DNA of 64,000 nt from Prochlorococcus marinus str. MIT 9211 (GTDB taxonomy: Bacteria; Cyanobacteriota; Cyanobacteriia; PCC-6307; Cyanobiaceae), in the NCBI RefSeq assembly GCF_000018585.1, contig NC_009976.1, forward strand, positions 367,982-431,981. Reading direction: 5' to 3'. The notes beneath the pieces are model-generated. The model had not been told where the DNA came from, did not search any database, and saw only the letters and a list, made by a program, of their open reading frames with translations. This document shows, one piece after another, positions 21,689 through 42,820 of the stretch (its first letter is position 1; each line of letters starts with the position of its first letter). The position numbers and the translations under genes are program-made.

Positions 21689-22483
21689 TTATAAGTAACC
21701 TGTTAAGGTTATTGATCGAAATTCAATACCTTCAATAACTTTCCATGGCATTGAGGAACGATCTACACAGATTACTTCTTTAAAACCCAAATTTTTGAAG
21801 TCATTTATGAACTGATCCTCTTGCCAGGCTCCACTAATGCAACCACTCCAAAGTTCAGGGTCTTCTTGGAGATTTAAAGGCACTTTCTTATTGGAGACTA
21901 TGTCACTAATGGCTACTCTTCCATTTCTCCTTAGAACTCTCTTGATGTTTCTTAGTAAACGTTCTCGATCTGAGGGATTCACTAGATTCAAGACACAATT
22001 GCTTATTACGACATCGATACTTGCATCCTTGACCAACTGTTCTCCGTTGCCTTGCATTGAATCAAGAGCTTGAATATCTCCTTCTAAGAAAGTCATATTC
22101 GAAAAACCAATTCTTGCGGCGACTATAGGCGCAGCTTGCCTTGACAAGGCAAGCATCTCATTGTTCCTGTCTATTCCAATAACATGACCAGATTTACCTA
22201 CTACCTGAGCGCAAATGAAAGCATTTTTGCCACTTCCACTACCAAGGTCAAGAACTATATCTCCTTTCTTGATCCACCGAGTTGGGTCACCACATCCATA
22301 ATCTTTTTCTATATTTTCAGCTGGAATGACTTCTAATAGTTTTGGATTAAAGGCAATGGGCGAGCACAAACATTTCTCTTGATCTATAGCGGCAGCTCCA
22401 TATCTCTTATCCACCGCACTAGTTTGATTTATATTGCTTTGATCATTATTGTTTTCAGATTGATTGCAGCACTTGTTAGTCAA
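21689..22483 (-). CDS. ArsM-like arsenite methyltransferase, probably C-terminally truncated
   Basis: 264 aa. SAM-dependent methyltransferase with motif I VLDLGSGSGKNAFIC (~78-92), IGIDRNNEML (~103-112), and the features of ArsM/AS3MT: YGAAA near ~28, DYGCGDP (~61-67), ISNCVLNL (Cys ~164) and SGCISGAW (Cys ~216), which correspond to the arsenic-binding cysteines. An extra Cys cluster is near the N-terminus (NKCCN, EKCLCSP). ArsM methylates trivalent arsenic in the cytosol. The chain stops after IEFRSITLTGYL, where family members continue TLTAYKGK into a C-terminal domain, so about 80-100 residues seem missing. Activity is therefore uncertain. Confidence 0.82.
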   Translation of the reverse strand: MTNKCCNQSENNNDQSNINQTSAVDKRYGAAAIDQEKCLCSPIAFNPKLLEVIPAENIEKDYGCGDPTRWIKKGDIVLDLGSGSGKNAFICAQVVGKSGHVIGIDRNNEMLALSRQAAPIVAARIGFSNMTFLEGDIQALDSMQGNGEQLVKDASIDVVISNCVLNLVNPSDRERLLRNIKRVLRRNGRVAISDIVSNKKVPLNLQEDPELWSGCISGAWQEDQFINDFKNLGFKEVICVDRSSMPWKVIEGIEFRSITLTGYL

Positions 22484-22566
22484 GATGATTAATTTGATCG
22501 TTGTTTATTTTATATAGATTCCAGTTTCTTCAAAACTTTGAAAAGAGATTTGAATTAAAGATCTAA

Positions 22567-22596
22567 AAAATGCCCCCCTTGTGAGGGGGGCATTTT
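22567..22596. terminator. Strong bidirectional rho-independent terminator
   Basis: AAAATGCCCCCC (22567-22578) pairs perfectly with GGGGGGCATTTT (22585-22596) around TTGTGA: a 12-bp stem with six consecutive G-C pairs and A/T tails on both sides. It follows the stop of the minus-strand DUF4278 gene (22618) and precedes arsM, so it should end the DUF4278 transcript and separate the two genes. Confidence 0.88.
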
Positions 22597-22606
22597 GTTG
22601 TGAATG

Positions 22607-22641
22607 AGAGGAGTTGATTACTTTTGGTAATCAACTCCTCT
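22607..22641. repeat. Perfect 14-bp inverted repeat over the stop codon of the DUF4278 gene
   Basis: AGAGGAGTTGATTA (22607-22620) and TAATCAACTCCTCT (22628-22641), 7-nt spacer. The stop codon of the small gene (complement of 22618-22620) forms the inner end of one arm and its last coding codons the other arm. It lies 11 nt before the terminator hairpin at 22567-22596, giving tandem 3' stem-loops in the mRNA. Confidence 0.85.
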
Positions 22642-22785
22642 GTATTTGAGGATAGGATGATCTGTAGAGATCTCTTGTCGACGAGTGGAGTAGATGTTAC
22701 GTCTGTATGTCAGTTCAACAAACTGCTTTGGAGCAGCTTCTTTGGTCTGAACATACTCTTTGCCACGATAAGTAAGTGTAGGCAT
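22618..22785 (-). CDS. DUF4278 small protein, 55 aa
   Basis: 55 aa: begins MPTLTYRGKEYVQTKEAAP and ends LKYRGVDYQK, with a middle VELTYRRNIYSTRRQE. The repeated TYRG/KYRG motif and size fit the cyanobacterial DUF4278 family, very basic small cytosolic proteins of unknown function. ATG at 22785, TAA complement at 22618-22620. Downstream are a perfect 14-bp hairpin over the stop and a strong terminator; upstream is a stretch of three hairpins (22807-22883). This degree of RNA structure on both sides suggests a well expressed, possibly regulated short mRNA. Confidence 0.8.
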   Translation of the reverse strand: MPTLTYRGKEYVQTKEAAPKQFVELTYRRNIYSTRRQEISTDHPILKYRGVDYQK

Positions 22786-22806
22786 TGTGAGAGTCCGATT
22801 AGATGA

Positions 22807-22883
22807 CCAGGTCCCCGTTCCATGGCCTGGTTCTAATTTGCGCCCTGGTTGAAACAGGGTGAACGCTTGTAGCCATTGCTACA
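22807..22883 (-). promoter_or_regulatory. Structured leader upstream of the DUF4278 gene
   Basis: Three short inverted repeats in series: CCAGG/CCTGG (22807-22811, 22826-22830), CCCTG/CAGGG (22843-22847, 22855-22859) and TGTAGC/GCTACA (22868-22873, 22878-22883, 4-nt loop). On the minus strand a TAATAA -10-like box lies just upstream (about 22886-22891), which would start the transcript right before the first hairpin and give a ~100-nt structured 5' leader. On the plus strand the last hairpin is followed by GTTTTATTATT and could instead act as a terminator of a short RNA. Confidence 0.4.
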
Positions 22884-23078
22884 GTTTTATTATTCCTGCT
22901 TTTTTTCTGCGTATGTAGTTCAAAAGGATACAAAACGGATTTATTTTCAGGTTTGGTTAAGATTTCGTCTTGAGGGTCTAAACTAATCTCCAGGTGAAAT
23001 TCTTGCTTGACTTTCTCGTTAAAGGGCTTCTTTCGACTCTTGAATTATGAAATTCTTCTTAAACAGGTTCCTTAGAAG

Positions 23079-23342
23079 ATGAAAATACTATTCTTTTTCC
23101 TTGGCACTGCAATCAGGTCAATGGCTTTAAAACCTTCTAGATTCATTGTTTTTCATACCTATATCTCTTTCATTTATTTAGTTATGTATGTTGCCAAGAC
23201 AAGCTCTTTTGATGGCTATGGTTTGTTGTTTACATCGCTAGTGCTTGCACCATTGTTTTTAGCTATATATGGCGGTCTTCCCGTTGATTGTCTAAATTAT
23301 CAGACGGCTATAAGTCGTGAGCTTGAGGTAATTGATAATTAG
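23079..23342 (+). CDS. Small conserved-looking membrane protein, 87 aa
   Basis: 87 aa, unrecognised. ATG at 23079 preceded by AGAAG. Two hydrophobic segments: FIVFHTYISFIYLVMYVA (~22-39) and YGLLFTSLVLAPLFLAIYGGLPV (split, ~47-68), with a short basic N-terminus and an acidic end, so probably a two-span inner or thylakoid membrane protein. No domain assigned. About 290 nt of upstream non-coding sequence holds its promoter and the divergent leader of the DUF4278 gene. Function not deduced. Confidence 0.6.
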   Translation: MKILFFFLGTAIRSMALKPSRFIVFHTYISFIYLVMYVAKTSSFDGYGLLFTSLVLAPLFLAIYGGLPVDCLNYQTAISRELEVIDN

Positions 23343-40120: not shown

Positions 40121-42820
40121 GTGGCGCAAGCTCTAGTAATCGTTGAAAGTCCAACAAAGGCACGAACTATAAAAAGCTTCTTGCCGAAAGACTTTGAAGT
40201 GGTCGCTTCCATGGGGCATGTCAGGGATCTTCCCAATAGTGCAAGTGAGATCCCTGCTGCTCAAAAAGGCGAAAAATGGGCAACTTTAGGGGTGAATACG
40301 ACGGCGGACTTTGAACCTTTGTATGTTGTACCAAAAGATAAAAAAAAGATTGTTAGGGAGCTTAAAACTGCTTTAAAAGGCGCTGACCAGCTTTTGCTTG
40401 CAACTGATGAAGATCGAGAAGGCGAAAGCATTAGCTGGCACTTATTGCAGCTTCTGAACCCAAAGGTTCCTGCCAAGAGAATGGTTTTTCATGAGATTAC
40501 AAAGGACGCAATATCTCATGCTCTGACTCAGACAAGAGATCTTGATATGGAATTGGTCCATGCTCAAGAGACCAGGCGTATTCTTGACCGATTAGTGGGA
40601 TACACCCTTTCACCTCTTCTTTGGAAAAAGGTTGCATGGGGACTTTCTGCTGGAAGAGTTCAATCTGTTGCTGTCCGACTCCTAGTTCTCCGTGAACGTG
40701 CCCGTAGAGCTTTTAGAAGCGCGAATTATTGGGATTTGAAAACTACTTTACAAAATCAAGGGAACTCATTTGAGGCAAAACTGGCAACTCTGGGCGGCCA
40801 GAAAATAGCTAGCGGGATTGATTTTGATGATTCCACTGGCTTGATGAAGGATGGAAATAATGCTCGCTTGGTCAGTGAAAAAGAAGCAAAAGATCTTGCA
40901 AAAACACTCCAATTGAATGAATGGAAAGTTAGTTCGATTGAAGAAAAGCCTACAGTTAGGAGACCAGTACCCCCATTTACTACAAGTACTCTTCAACAGG
41001 AGTCAAACCGCAAGCTTAGGCTCTCGACTAGAGAAACGATGAGATGTGCACAGGGTCTATATGAGAGAGGTTTTATAACTTATATGCGAACTGATTCAGT
41101 TCATCTCTCAGAGCAGGCAATTAAAGCTTCTAGAAAATGTATTGAGTCTAGATATGGAGCTGATTACTTAAGTAATAAAGTCCGTCAATTTAGCAATAAG
41201 TCTAGAAATGCTCAAGAAGCACATGAAGCCATTCGGCCTGCGGGAGCAACTTTTAAGATGCCAGATCAAACAGGGCTTGAAGGTAGAGATCTGGCGCTTT
41301 ATGAATTGATATGGAAAAGAACGGTTGCGAGTCAAATGCAAGAAGCTCGCTTGACAATGATTGGAGTTGAAATAACAGTTGGTGATGCTGTGTTTCGTTC
41401 TTCTGGTAAGAGAATTGACTTTCCTGGTTTCTTCCGAGCTTATGTGGAAGGAAATGATGATCCAGATGCAGCCTTAGAAGGTCAAGAAGTCCTTCTTCCA
41501 AGTTTGGAGGTGGGAGATACACCTATTGTCGAAAAGATAGAGCCGTTAGCTCATCAAACACAACCACCTGCCCGCTATAGTGAAGCTTCCTTGGTAAAAA
41601 TGCTTGAGAAGGAAGGTATTGGAAGACCTTCTACGTATTCAAGTATTATTGGAACCATTGTGGATAGAGGTTATTCCTCTATCCACAATAATTCTTTAAT
41701 ACCTAGCTTTACAGCATTTGCAGTAACGGCTTTATTAGAAGAACATTTCCCAGATCTAGTTGATACTAGGTTTACTGCTAGAATGGAATTGACTTTAGAT
41801 GAAATCTCTACAGGTAAAGTGGAGTGGTTACCATATTTATCAGGCTTTTATAAAGGAGAGGATGGCCTTGAAAATCAAGTCGAGAAAAAAGAAGGAGACA
41901 TAGACCCAGGTTTATCTAGAACTATTGCTTTAGAAGGCCTAAAATGTGTTGTCAGGATTGGACGCTTTGGAGCCTATCTTGAATCGAGACGTCTAGGAGA
42001 TAATGGCGAAGAAGAGTTGATTAAAGCCACACTCCCTCAAGAAACGACCCCAGCAGATCTGGATGAAGAGAAAGCAGAGTTAATTCTGAAGCAAAAATCA
42101 GATCAACCTGATCCTTTGGGGACGGATCCTGAAACAGGTGAAGAGATTTATTTGCTCTTTGGTCAATATGGCCCTTATGTTCAGAGAGGGCAAGTAACTG
42201 ATGAGGTGCCGAAACCAAAAAGAGCTTCAGTGCCAAAAGCAGTTAAACCAGAAGATCTGACTATAGAGGAAGCCCTTGGGTTGCTTAAATTGCCACGTGC
42301 TCTTGGGGAGCATCCTGATGGGGGTAAGATTGCTGCAGGTCTTGGGCGCTTTGGTCCTTATATTGTTTGGAATAAAGGAAAAGGAGAAAAAGATTATCGA
42401 TCACTAAAAGGAGCTGATGATGTTCTTGAAGTAAAGATTGAAAGAGCACTTGAGTTATTGGCTATGCCAAAGAGAGGTAGAGGTGGTAGGACTGCATTGA
42501 AAGACCTTGGCATACCTAAGGGACAGAAAGATAAGGTTGAGGTTTATAACGGCCCCTATGGACTTTACGTAAAACAAGGGAAAGTCAATGCTTCTTTGCC
42601 AAAAGGTAAAAGTGCTGAAGAAATTACCATCGAAGAAGCAGTTGAATTGCTCGAAGCTAAACTTACAAGTAAAAAAACTAAAAAGAAAAAAGTAGCTAAA
42701 CCCAAAAGCTCTACAAAAAGCAAAGCAAAGTCCAATAAAGCGACTCCTAAAGCTCCATCTACTACTAAGTCAGGACGATTAAGAGCAAGTGCGGTAAGAG
42801 TTATTAAGTCTGGTAATTAA
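40121..42820 (+). CDS. topA: DNA topoisomerase I
   Basis: 899 aa from GTG at 40121 (MAQALVIVESPTKARTI); a TTG two codons upstream is also open. Type IA enzyme that relaxes negative supercoils. TOPRIM domain with IVESPTKA and LATDEDREGESISWHL (~95-110), the catalytic Tyr in GFITYMRTDSVHLS (~320), and KEGIGRPSTYSSIIGTIVDRGY (split, ~495-516). The tail (~590-850) has several TopA C-terminal repeats (GRFGAYLE, FGQYGPYVQRG, LGRFGPYIVW, YNGPYGLYVKQG) but no zinc fingers, then a Lys-rich end. A perfect 14-bp inverted repeat lies inside the gene at 41657-41689. Confidence 0.97.
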   Translation: MAQALVIVESPTKARTIKSFLPKDFEVVASMGHVRDLPNSASEIPAAQKGEKWATLGVNTTADFEPLYVVPKDKKKIVRELKTALKGADQLLLATDEDREGESISWHLLQLLNPKVPAKRMVFHEITKDAISHALTQTRDLDMELVHAQETRRILDRLVGYTLSPLLWKKVAWGLSAGRVQSVAVRLLVLRERARRAFRSANYWDLKTTLQNQGNSFEAKLATLGGQKIASGIDFDDSTGLMKDGNNARLVSEKEAKDLAKTLQLNEWKVSSIEEKPTVRRPVPPFTTSTLQQESNRKLRLSTRETMRCAQGLYERGFITYMRTDSVHLSEQAIKASRKCIESRYGADYLSNKVRQFSNKSRNAQEAHEAIRPAGATFKMPDQTGLEGRDLALYELIWKRTVASQMQEARLTMIGVEITVGDAVFRSSGKRIDFPGFFRAYVEGNDDPDAALEGQEVLLPSLEVGDTPIVEKIEPLAHQTQPPARYSEASLVKMLEKEGIGRPSTYSSIIGTIVDRGYSSIHNNSLIPSFTAFAVTALLEEHFPDLVDTRFTARMELTLDEISTGKVEWLPYLSGFYKGEDGLENQVEKKEGDIDPGLSRTIALEGLKCVVRIGRFGAYLESRRLGDNGEEELIKATLPQETTPADLDEEKAELILKQKSDQPDPLGTDPETGEEIYLLFGQYGPYVQRGQVTDEVPKPKRASVPKAVKPEDLTIEEALGLLKLPRALGEHPDGGKIAAGLGRFGPYIVWNKGKGEKDYRSLKGADDVLEVKIERALELLAMPKRGRGGRTALKDLGIPKGQKDKVEVYNGPYGLYVKQGKVNASLPKGKSAEEITIEEAVELLEAKLTSKKTKKKKVAKPKSSTKSKAKSNKATPKAPSTTKSGRLRASAVRVIKSGN
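41657..41689. repeat. Perfect 14-bp inverted repeat inside topA
   Basis: ATTGTGGATAGAGG (41657-41670) and CCTCTATCCACAAT (41676-41689) with loop TTATT. It codes for TIVDRGYSSIHNN at a conserved region of the topoisomerase (IVDRGY). As RNA or extruded DNA it would be a 14-bp stem with a 5-nt loop, far stronger than expected by chance in this A+T-rich genome. Confidence 0.85.

Follow-up and report, generated by a model that had tools for sequence, protein, structure and literature searches.

In marine picocyanobacteria, a glutamine-II riboswitch in front of a DUF4278 gene is an established arrangement, and an NtcA motif has been described in the promoter of one such gene, PMM1846 (PMC6316151). 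Riboswitches of this class are reported to bind glutamine and to act as ON switches (PMC6316151, PMC6698751); a crystal structure and a proposed translational mechanism have been reported (PMC6698751). Yfr6, an RNA of 244/239 nt with a 33-aa ORF in MED4 and SS120 (PMC1242208), was proposed to be a dual-function RNA (PMC1242208, PMC2518516), a proposal that predates the review in which such leaders are described as riboswitches (PMC6316151). The half-life of Yfr6 in MED4 was given as ~2 min (PMC1242208), and a decay rate of 4.0 min is listed for it elsewhere (PMC2897979). The review also raised the question of whether DUF4278 proteins replace the glutamine synthetase inactivating factors that are missing in picocyanobacteria (PMC6316151).

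Here, we describe a locus of this type within a stretch of 64,000 nucleotides (the window) of the genome of Prochlorococcus marinus str. MIT 9211, which consists of a single contig of 1,688,963 bp. At first sight an anonymous small gene rich in hairpins, it becomes, as judged by its sequence, a probable nitrogen-sensing unit with defined parts (Table 1). We favour, with a probability of roughly 0.86, the reading that the locus gives rise to an NtcA-repressed, glutamine-activated small mRNA for a DUF4278 protein, and that a palindrome covering the stop codon is private to this lineage and has little or no required role. The operator-like site, the aptamer, the protein and the terminator are conserved, while the stop-codon stem is absent in the examined relatives. 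In the picocyanobacterial loci examined, these four conserved parts mostly occur together. The fold of positions 22560-22890 is well above chance, with a minimum free energy of -112.7 compared to -71.1 (sd 5.3) for 100 dinucleotide shuffles (z -7.9). A sequence-only reading of this DNA had proposed a 55-aa gene on the minus strand and a short, regulated mRNA for a small protein. The ORF runs from ATG to TAA as proposed, and with a regulatory-RNA leader and an intrinsic terminator at the 3' end such an mRNA is likely; its span is ~320 nt and not the ~270 nt (22885 to 22567) that had been suggested.

Table 1. Parts of the DUF4278 locus, with positions in the window.
Feature	Position	Strand	Basis or remark
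Putative -10 element AATAAT	22889..22894	-	6 nt before GTAGC palindrome; from sequence and hexamer spacing among relatives
NtcA-type operator GTAGCAATGGCTAC (GTAN8TAC)	22869..22882	-	Putative; probably +1..+14
Glutamine-II riboswitch aptamer (Downstream-peptide, type 2 glutamine)	22806..22868	-	Rfam RF01704
Linker from aptamer to start codon, 20 nt, SD-like CGGAC	22786..22805	-	Possible AUUAGA:UCUAAU pairing
DUF4278 ORF, 55 aa, ATG to TAA, three Y-R-[GR] repeats	22618..22785	-	PF14105
Perfect 15-bp hairpin over last codons and stop codon	22607..22641	-	Seen only in own genome
Intrinsic terminator, 13-bp stem and U-tract	22567..22596	-	Strict terminator rule

In a cmscan search, the leader matched the complete RF01704 model (positions 1-60 of 60) with 63.8 bits, against a gathering cut-off of 33, and the aptamer sits 20 nt before the ATG of the DUF4278 ORF. 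The three leader hairpins of the sequence-only reading are all present in the minimum free energy fold, but their identity had been missed: the second and third correspond to the aptamer helices CCCTG..CAGGG and ACCAGG..CCTGGT, while the first is an NtcA-type DNA palindrome. Within the aptamer, the stretches CGUUC and GAACG would be the partners of a pseudoknot. RF01704 was detected in 27 of the 60 genomes searched, the own genome included, which contains three glutamine-II aptamers (at this locus, at C1:1063005-1063065 and at C1:553204-553260). In a set of 84 distinct homologous loci, the aptamer core GAACGGG was recognised by pattern in 81. As part of these loci were fetched by an aptamer search, the co-occurrence of aptamer and gene is better judged on the 72 loci brought in by protein search; 70 of them have the core by pattern, and the remaining two (L054, L083) have the aptamer on inspection. 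The same holds for L039, the third pattern miss among the 84. The causes of the misses were a start codon called too early in two loci and one altered core base in L083.

The proposed occlusion of the ribosome binding site (RBS) was evaluated through the complementarity between the third strand of the aptamer and the Shine-Dalgarno region, which amounts to -5.1 kcal/mol versus -3.9 kcal/mol (sd 0.2) in letter shuffles. Native pairs were no better than swapped ones, with 1589 of 5000 permutations reaching the native value in a test where some rows (e.g. L081, L088) had been parsed with the wrong segment; hence, this step is without covariation support. In the own genome both pairing sides differ from those of L007 and L008 yet still pair, and an AUUAGA:UCUAAU interaction of the linker with the third strand is plausible from the sequence.

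The encoded protein matches DUF4278 (PF14105) over residues 3-53 of 55, with 37.2 bits at a gathering cut-off of 25.3, while no NCBIfam model and, by sequence, no PDB entry matched it at E <= 1. Homologues (E <= 1e-6) are present in 145 of the 300 genomes of the family, including the own genome, and all ten named relatives that carry the gene belong to Prochlorococcus. The protein is conserved, with 22 invariant columns in an alignment of 11 sequences. An AlphaFold2 model shows the order strand-strand-helix-strand-strand and is poor (mean pLDDT 63.9, pTM 0.24). We looked for an inhibitory C-terminal region like that of IF7 and found none; since DUF4278 fills nearly the whole chain, there is no room for a separate IF7-like half, and the protein is not filed as an inactivating factor. 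It is set apart from IF7 by domain coverage, and could still act like an inactivating factor. Spread of the gene by phages was considered and rejected, as none of ten IMG/VR stretches matching the peptide pattern encodes a relative and a tblastn search of 50,697 phage records gave no match at E <= 1e-3.

The NtcA operator has the consensus GTAN8TAC. At the presumed transcription start, 6 nt after a -10-like hexamer, this consensus is matched exactly, and in 74 of the 81 core-bearing loci it lies at a distance of 3-9 nt ahead of the aptamer, whereas shuffling of the same stretches would yield 0.85 such loci. The exact form GTAGCN4GCTAC is found a single time in the 1.69-Mb genome. Among 64 representatives (loci under 90% protein identity), 37 have a -10-like hexamer ending 6 or 7 nt before the palindrome, a spacing at which the first G of the palindrome would be +1. 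The start reported for the Yfr6 transcript, ~20 nt before the motif (PMC2864571), agrees with this putative +1. For gif genes, repression by NtcA from core-promoter sites has been reported (PMC6316151), and an NtcA operator is hence the likeliest role of the palindrome.

Alternatively, the palindrome might have been selected as a hairpin which stabilises the 5' end of the RNA, either instead of or in addition to binding NtcA. In 58 of the 64 representatives the pairing of GTAGC-N4-GCTAC is complete, with all five pairs, and a transcript starting here would carry it as a 5-bp hairpin at its 5' end. In L024, L029 and L031 both sides of a pair have changed, the L031 form breaking GTA/TAC with the pairing retained, and the loop of L048 (also of L049 and L050) has 3 nt, a length that a dimeric operator would not be expected to tolerate. 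On the other hand, the element varies least at its GTA and TAC ends. They are retained as GTAN8TAC in copies with a 33-aa ORF that break pair 5 (L001, L009, L020) and in loci before another small protein that break pair 4 (e.g. L153, L158, L162), and the reported repression of gif genes by NtcA argues in the same direction. We regard a stabiliser hairpin as rather unlikely, while the changes on both pair sides in L024, L029 and L031 and the short loop of L048 make an RNA-level role possible as an addition to that of an operator. A further minus-strand element, GTATCCTTTTGAACTAC (window 22915-22931), is located ~33-49 nt upstream of the presumed start and is kept as GTATCN5GAACTAC in L007 and L008; it is possibly a second NtcA-like site.

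At the 3' end, a perfect, GC-rich 13-bp stem with a loop of 4 nt is followed by T residues, as is characteristic of an intrinsic (Rho-independent) terminator; the stem reads terminator-like on the plus strand, too. The sequence-only reading had placed this terminator correctly, while giving its stem as 12 bp; the gap between this stem and the stop-codon stem is 10 nt. Applying a strict rule, a terminator is found behind 67 of the 84 homologous loci and none behind the other 17. As the sequences differ among the loci, what is kept is the function and not the sequence.

Gene order was compared in 19 loci (16 distinct), 15 of which belong to the other 83 homologous loci, and is largely syntenic: a NifU-like gene is found in 19 of 19, an 87-aa ORF in 18 and an aminotransferase gene in 15, the window's own locus (L006) not reaching the latter. 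The conservation of the NifU-like gene and the 87-aa ORF identifies the compared loci, both other genomes of the genus among them, as orthologues. The 87-aa ORF (plus strand, window 23079-23342) has no Pfam match and, being kept in all but one of the loci, is probably a real gene. Just downstream of the DUF4278 gene lies a methyltransferase gene (window 21689-22483), which is present at this place in four of the 19 loci (L006, L047, L050, L059) and thus seems to be gained and lost in the interval that separates the DUF4278 gene from that of the aminotransferase.

The hairpin covering the stop codon is perfect over 15 bp, one more than first noted at the same position, with the minus-strand loop CAAAA and the TAA (22618-22620) within its 3' arm. 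For the 56 nt around the stop codon a z of -8.8 was obtained. The lowest value among 382 control stops was -3.6; these belong to ORFs with 120 aa or more from a genome sample of 464 kb, composed of the window and twenty 20-kb stretches. Perfect inverted repeats with a stem of 10 bp or more and a loop of 3-10 nt were found 35 times in this sample, and two mononucleotide shuffles of the window gave none with a stem of that length. Only one other stop codon of 544 (ORFs of at least 50 aa, in a list that omitted the 55-aa gene itself) is spanned by such a repeat, which has 11 bp. Inverted repeats in the vicinity of E. coli stop codons are described as lying mainly behind the stops and as being mostly terminators (PMC6060812), and a strong repeat reaching into the reading frame is unusual by this yardstick, too. 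Elsewhere in the sample, a perfect 14-bp repeat with a 5-nt loop is located at window 41657-41689, and the longest one, of 27 bp with a 6-nt loop, at G000:C1:622012-622071 (L126:2012-2071).

A second terminator at the stop-codon stem was rejected, as no T-tract follows it. A repeated or mobile palindrome was likewise rejected: with up to 2 mismatches, the arm GAGGAGTTGATTACC was found in the genome in the two arms themselves and at four scattered sites with 2 mismatches, which do not constitute a family. Other Rfam families gave only sub-threshold matches at the 3' end, mostly on the plus strand and of the kind drawn by long hairpins.

All 83 remaining distinct loci, including those of the two further genomes of the genus, lack the stop-codon stem. 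The longest perfect Watson-Crick stem spanning the stop codon measures 15 bp here and at most 9 bp (in L053) in the other loci, in a scan covering loops of up to 12 nt; a longer-looped stem in L108 surfaced in the analysis of fold z values. In that analysis, the stop-spanning folds of L057 and L108 reached z values of -4.4 and -4.3, and L087 has a stop-spanning stem of 14 pairs once G-U pairs are counted. The stems of the locus had earlier been viewed together, as one pattern which relatives might share or lose. In the examined relatives, the protein persists without the stop-codon stem, whereas the leader fold is retained, as is a terminator in 67 of 84 loci. Thus, the stop-codon stem is not supported as part of a conserved design.

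The stop regions of the family have a mean z of -0.95, with 13 of 64 below -2, compared to -0.05 and 11 of 382 for the stops of the own genome (p ~1e-7). They are also more structured than the starts of the same genes (mean z 0.01), whereas the difference from the gene interior (-0.69) is not clear (p 0.13). As the controls come from one genome and the 64 loci are related, this is a weak tendency at most, and stop-spanning structure was not retained as a family trait; a purely private accident does not explain the tendency.

The 5' arm of the stem encodes a conserved RGVDY segment, while L007 and L008 have nothing comparable to the 3' arm, which includes the stop codon. Perfect RNA-hairpin stems can arise through a single template-switching event (PMC8794818), and the stem would be best explained by such an event, in which the coding arm was copied as its reverse complement directly after the stop codon. 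Laid down behind the coding arm, the copy would leave the protein unchanged. Since it is found in none of the examined relatives, the stem is probably an accident of the lineage. In summary, the hairpin is real, strong and private, and most likely dispensable; it may contribute a degree of protection at the 3' end, which the unit does not need. It offers a natural example of a strong palindrome that spares the protein, and a useful test of whether such stems matter.

The exceptional strength of the hairpin relative to the control stops, its perfect pairing and the missing T-tract, which shows that it is not simply a second terminator, could instead point to a selected regulatory element that couples mRNA stability to the state of the riboswitch, for example by slowing terminating ribosomes or by forming only in untranslated mRNA. 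The mild family-wide excess of structure at the stop would fit as well, as would the unrelated stop-spanning folds of L057 and L108 and, when G-U pairing is allowed, of L087. Yet the element as such is absent from the other 83 distinct loci, including those in both other genomes of the genus, and the family excess is not clearly above the gene interior; we consider selection for either mode of action improbable. Less probable still is a more specific version, a stability switch gated by translation, which would read the decision of the riboswitch a second time. At low glutamine, the mRNA would be untranslated and the 15-bp stem would form, inviting processing by RNase III/E or trapping the 3' end, whereas at high glutamine ribosomes would hold it open; the weaker, unrelated folds in L057, L108 and L087 would have been reached by other lineages to the same end.

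The sequence-only reading had also suggested a stable transcript and a dual-function RNA, i.e. a riboregulator and mRNA in one, as was proposed for Yfr6. The transcript is indeed highly structured (z -7.9), and Yfr6, with its 244 nt and 33-aa ORF, has been compared with RNAIII (PMC1242208, PMC2518516). However, the leader structure is accounted for by the riboswitch aptamer and the 3' structure by the terminator and the private stem. Moreover, the protein is conserved and the sequence behind the stop codon is not; in comparisons of the homologous loci, the conservation that was seen was confined to the operator, the aptamer, the ORF and the terminator. A dual function is thus very unlikely, and the stability of the transcript is doubtful, given that the paralogous Yfr6 of MED4 was reported to be short-lived.

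Taken together, we propose a monocistronic mRNA of ~320 nt which encodes the DUF4278 protein of 55 aa and is subject to two kinds of nitrogen control. Under nitrogen scarcity, NtcA would bind GTAN8TAC at the transcription start and repress. When glutamine is high, it would occupy the glutamine-II aptamer and stabilise the CGUUC:GAACG pseudoknot, by which the RBS would be freed and translation switched on. Transcription would end at the 13-bp terminator. Since repression by NtcA at low nitrogen and glutamine-dependent translation point the same way, synthesis of the protein would be expected under nitrogen-replete conditions. DUF4278 also forms the N-terminal part of the inactivating factor IF17, and the product therefore probably tunes nitrogen assimilation, perhaps via glutamine synthetase.

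The third aptamer of the genome (C1:553204-553260, 35.2 bits; locus G000:C1:553204-553560, L003 and L162) lies outside the window and precedes a small basic protein without DUF4278, with the consensus MNxLxLIRxxxxKAxRLHxAQL. Such an ORF follows the aptamer in 11 of 12 weak-aptamer loci, the own one included. The protein profile matches in 12 of 145 genomes of the class, all in the window's own family, and no Pfam or NCBIfam name was assigned above the cut-off. The own-genome copy carries an internal duplication, while the copy at L160 (G012:C1:1418740-1418913) looks decayed, with a TGA inside the profile match and no start-to-stop ORF behind the aptamer. At L163 (G032:C2:28600-29900), a glutamine-II aptamer precedes a 60-aa protein with an LIR..RLxxAQ start and two Y-R-G repeats, which scores 22.1 bits for DUF4278, under the cut-off of 25.3. 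By linking the two riboswitch-controlled families, this protein suggests that one regulatory system serves both.

Compared with described systems, the unit shares the glutamine riboswitch, NtcA control and the DUF4278 domain with gifB/IF17 of Synechocystis (PMC6316151), whereas gifB has a glutamine-I aptamer and IF17 an IF7-like C-terminal half. With Yfr6 it has the type of leader in common (PMC2864571), and the own genome also contains an aptamer (C1:1063005-1063065) before a 33-aa DUF4278 peptide with two repeats (G000:C1:1062871-1063065); the gene described here is a three-repeat, 55-aa form at another locus. The perfect 15-bp stop-codon hairpin, found in none of the 83 other loci, among which PMM1846 was not identified, distinguishes the unit from that of PMM1846 in Prochlorococcus MED4. 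The aptamer, the small DUF4278 ORF and the NtcA-type promoter motif are the same in both, and the unit belongs to a well-described kind.
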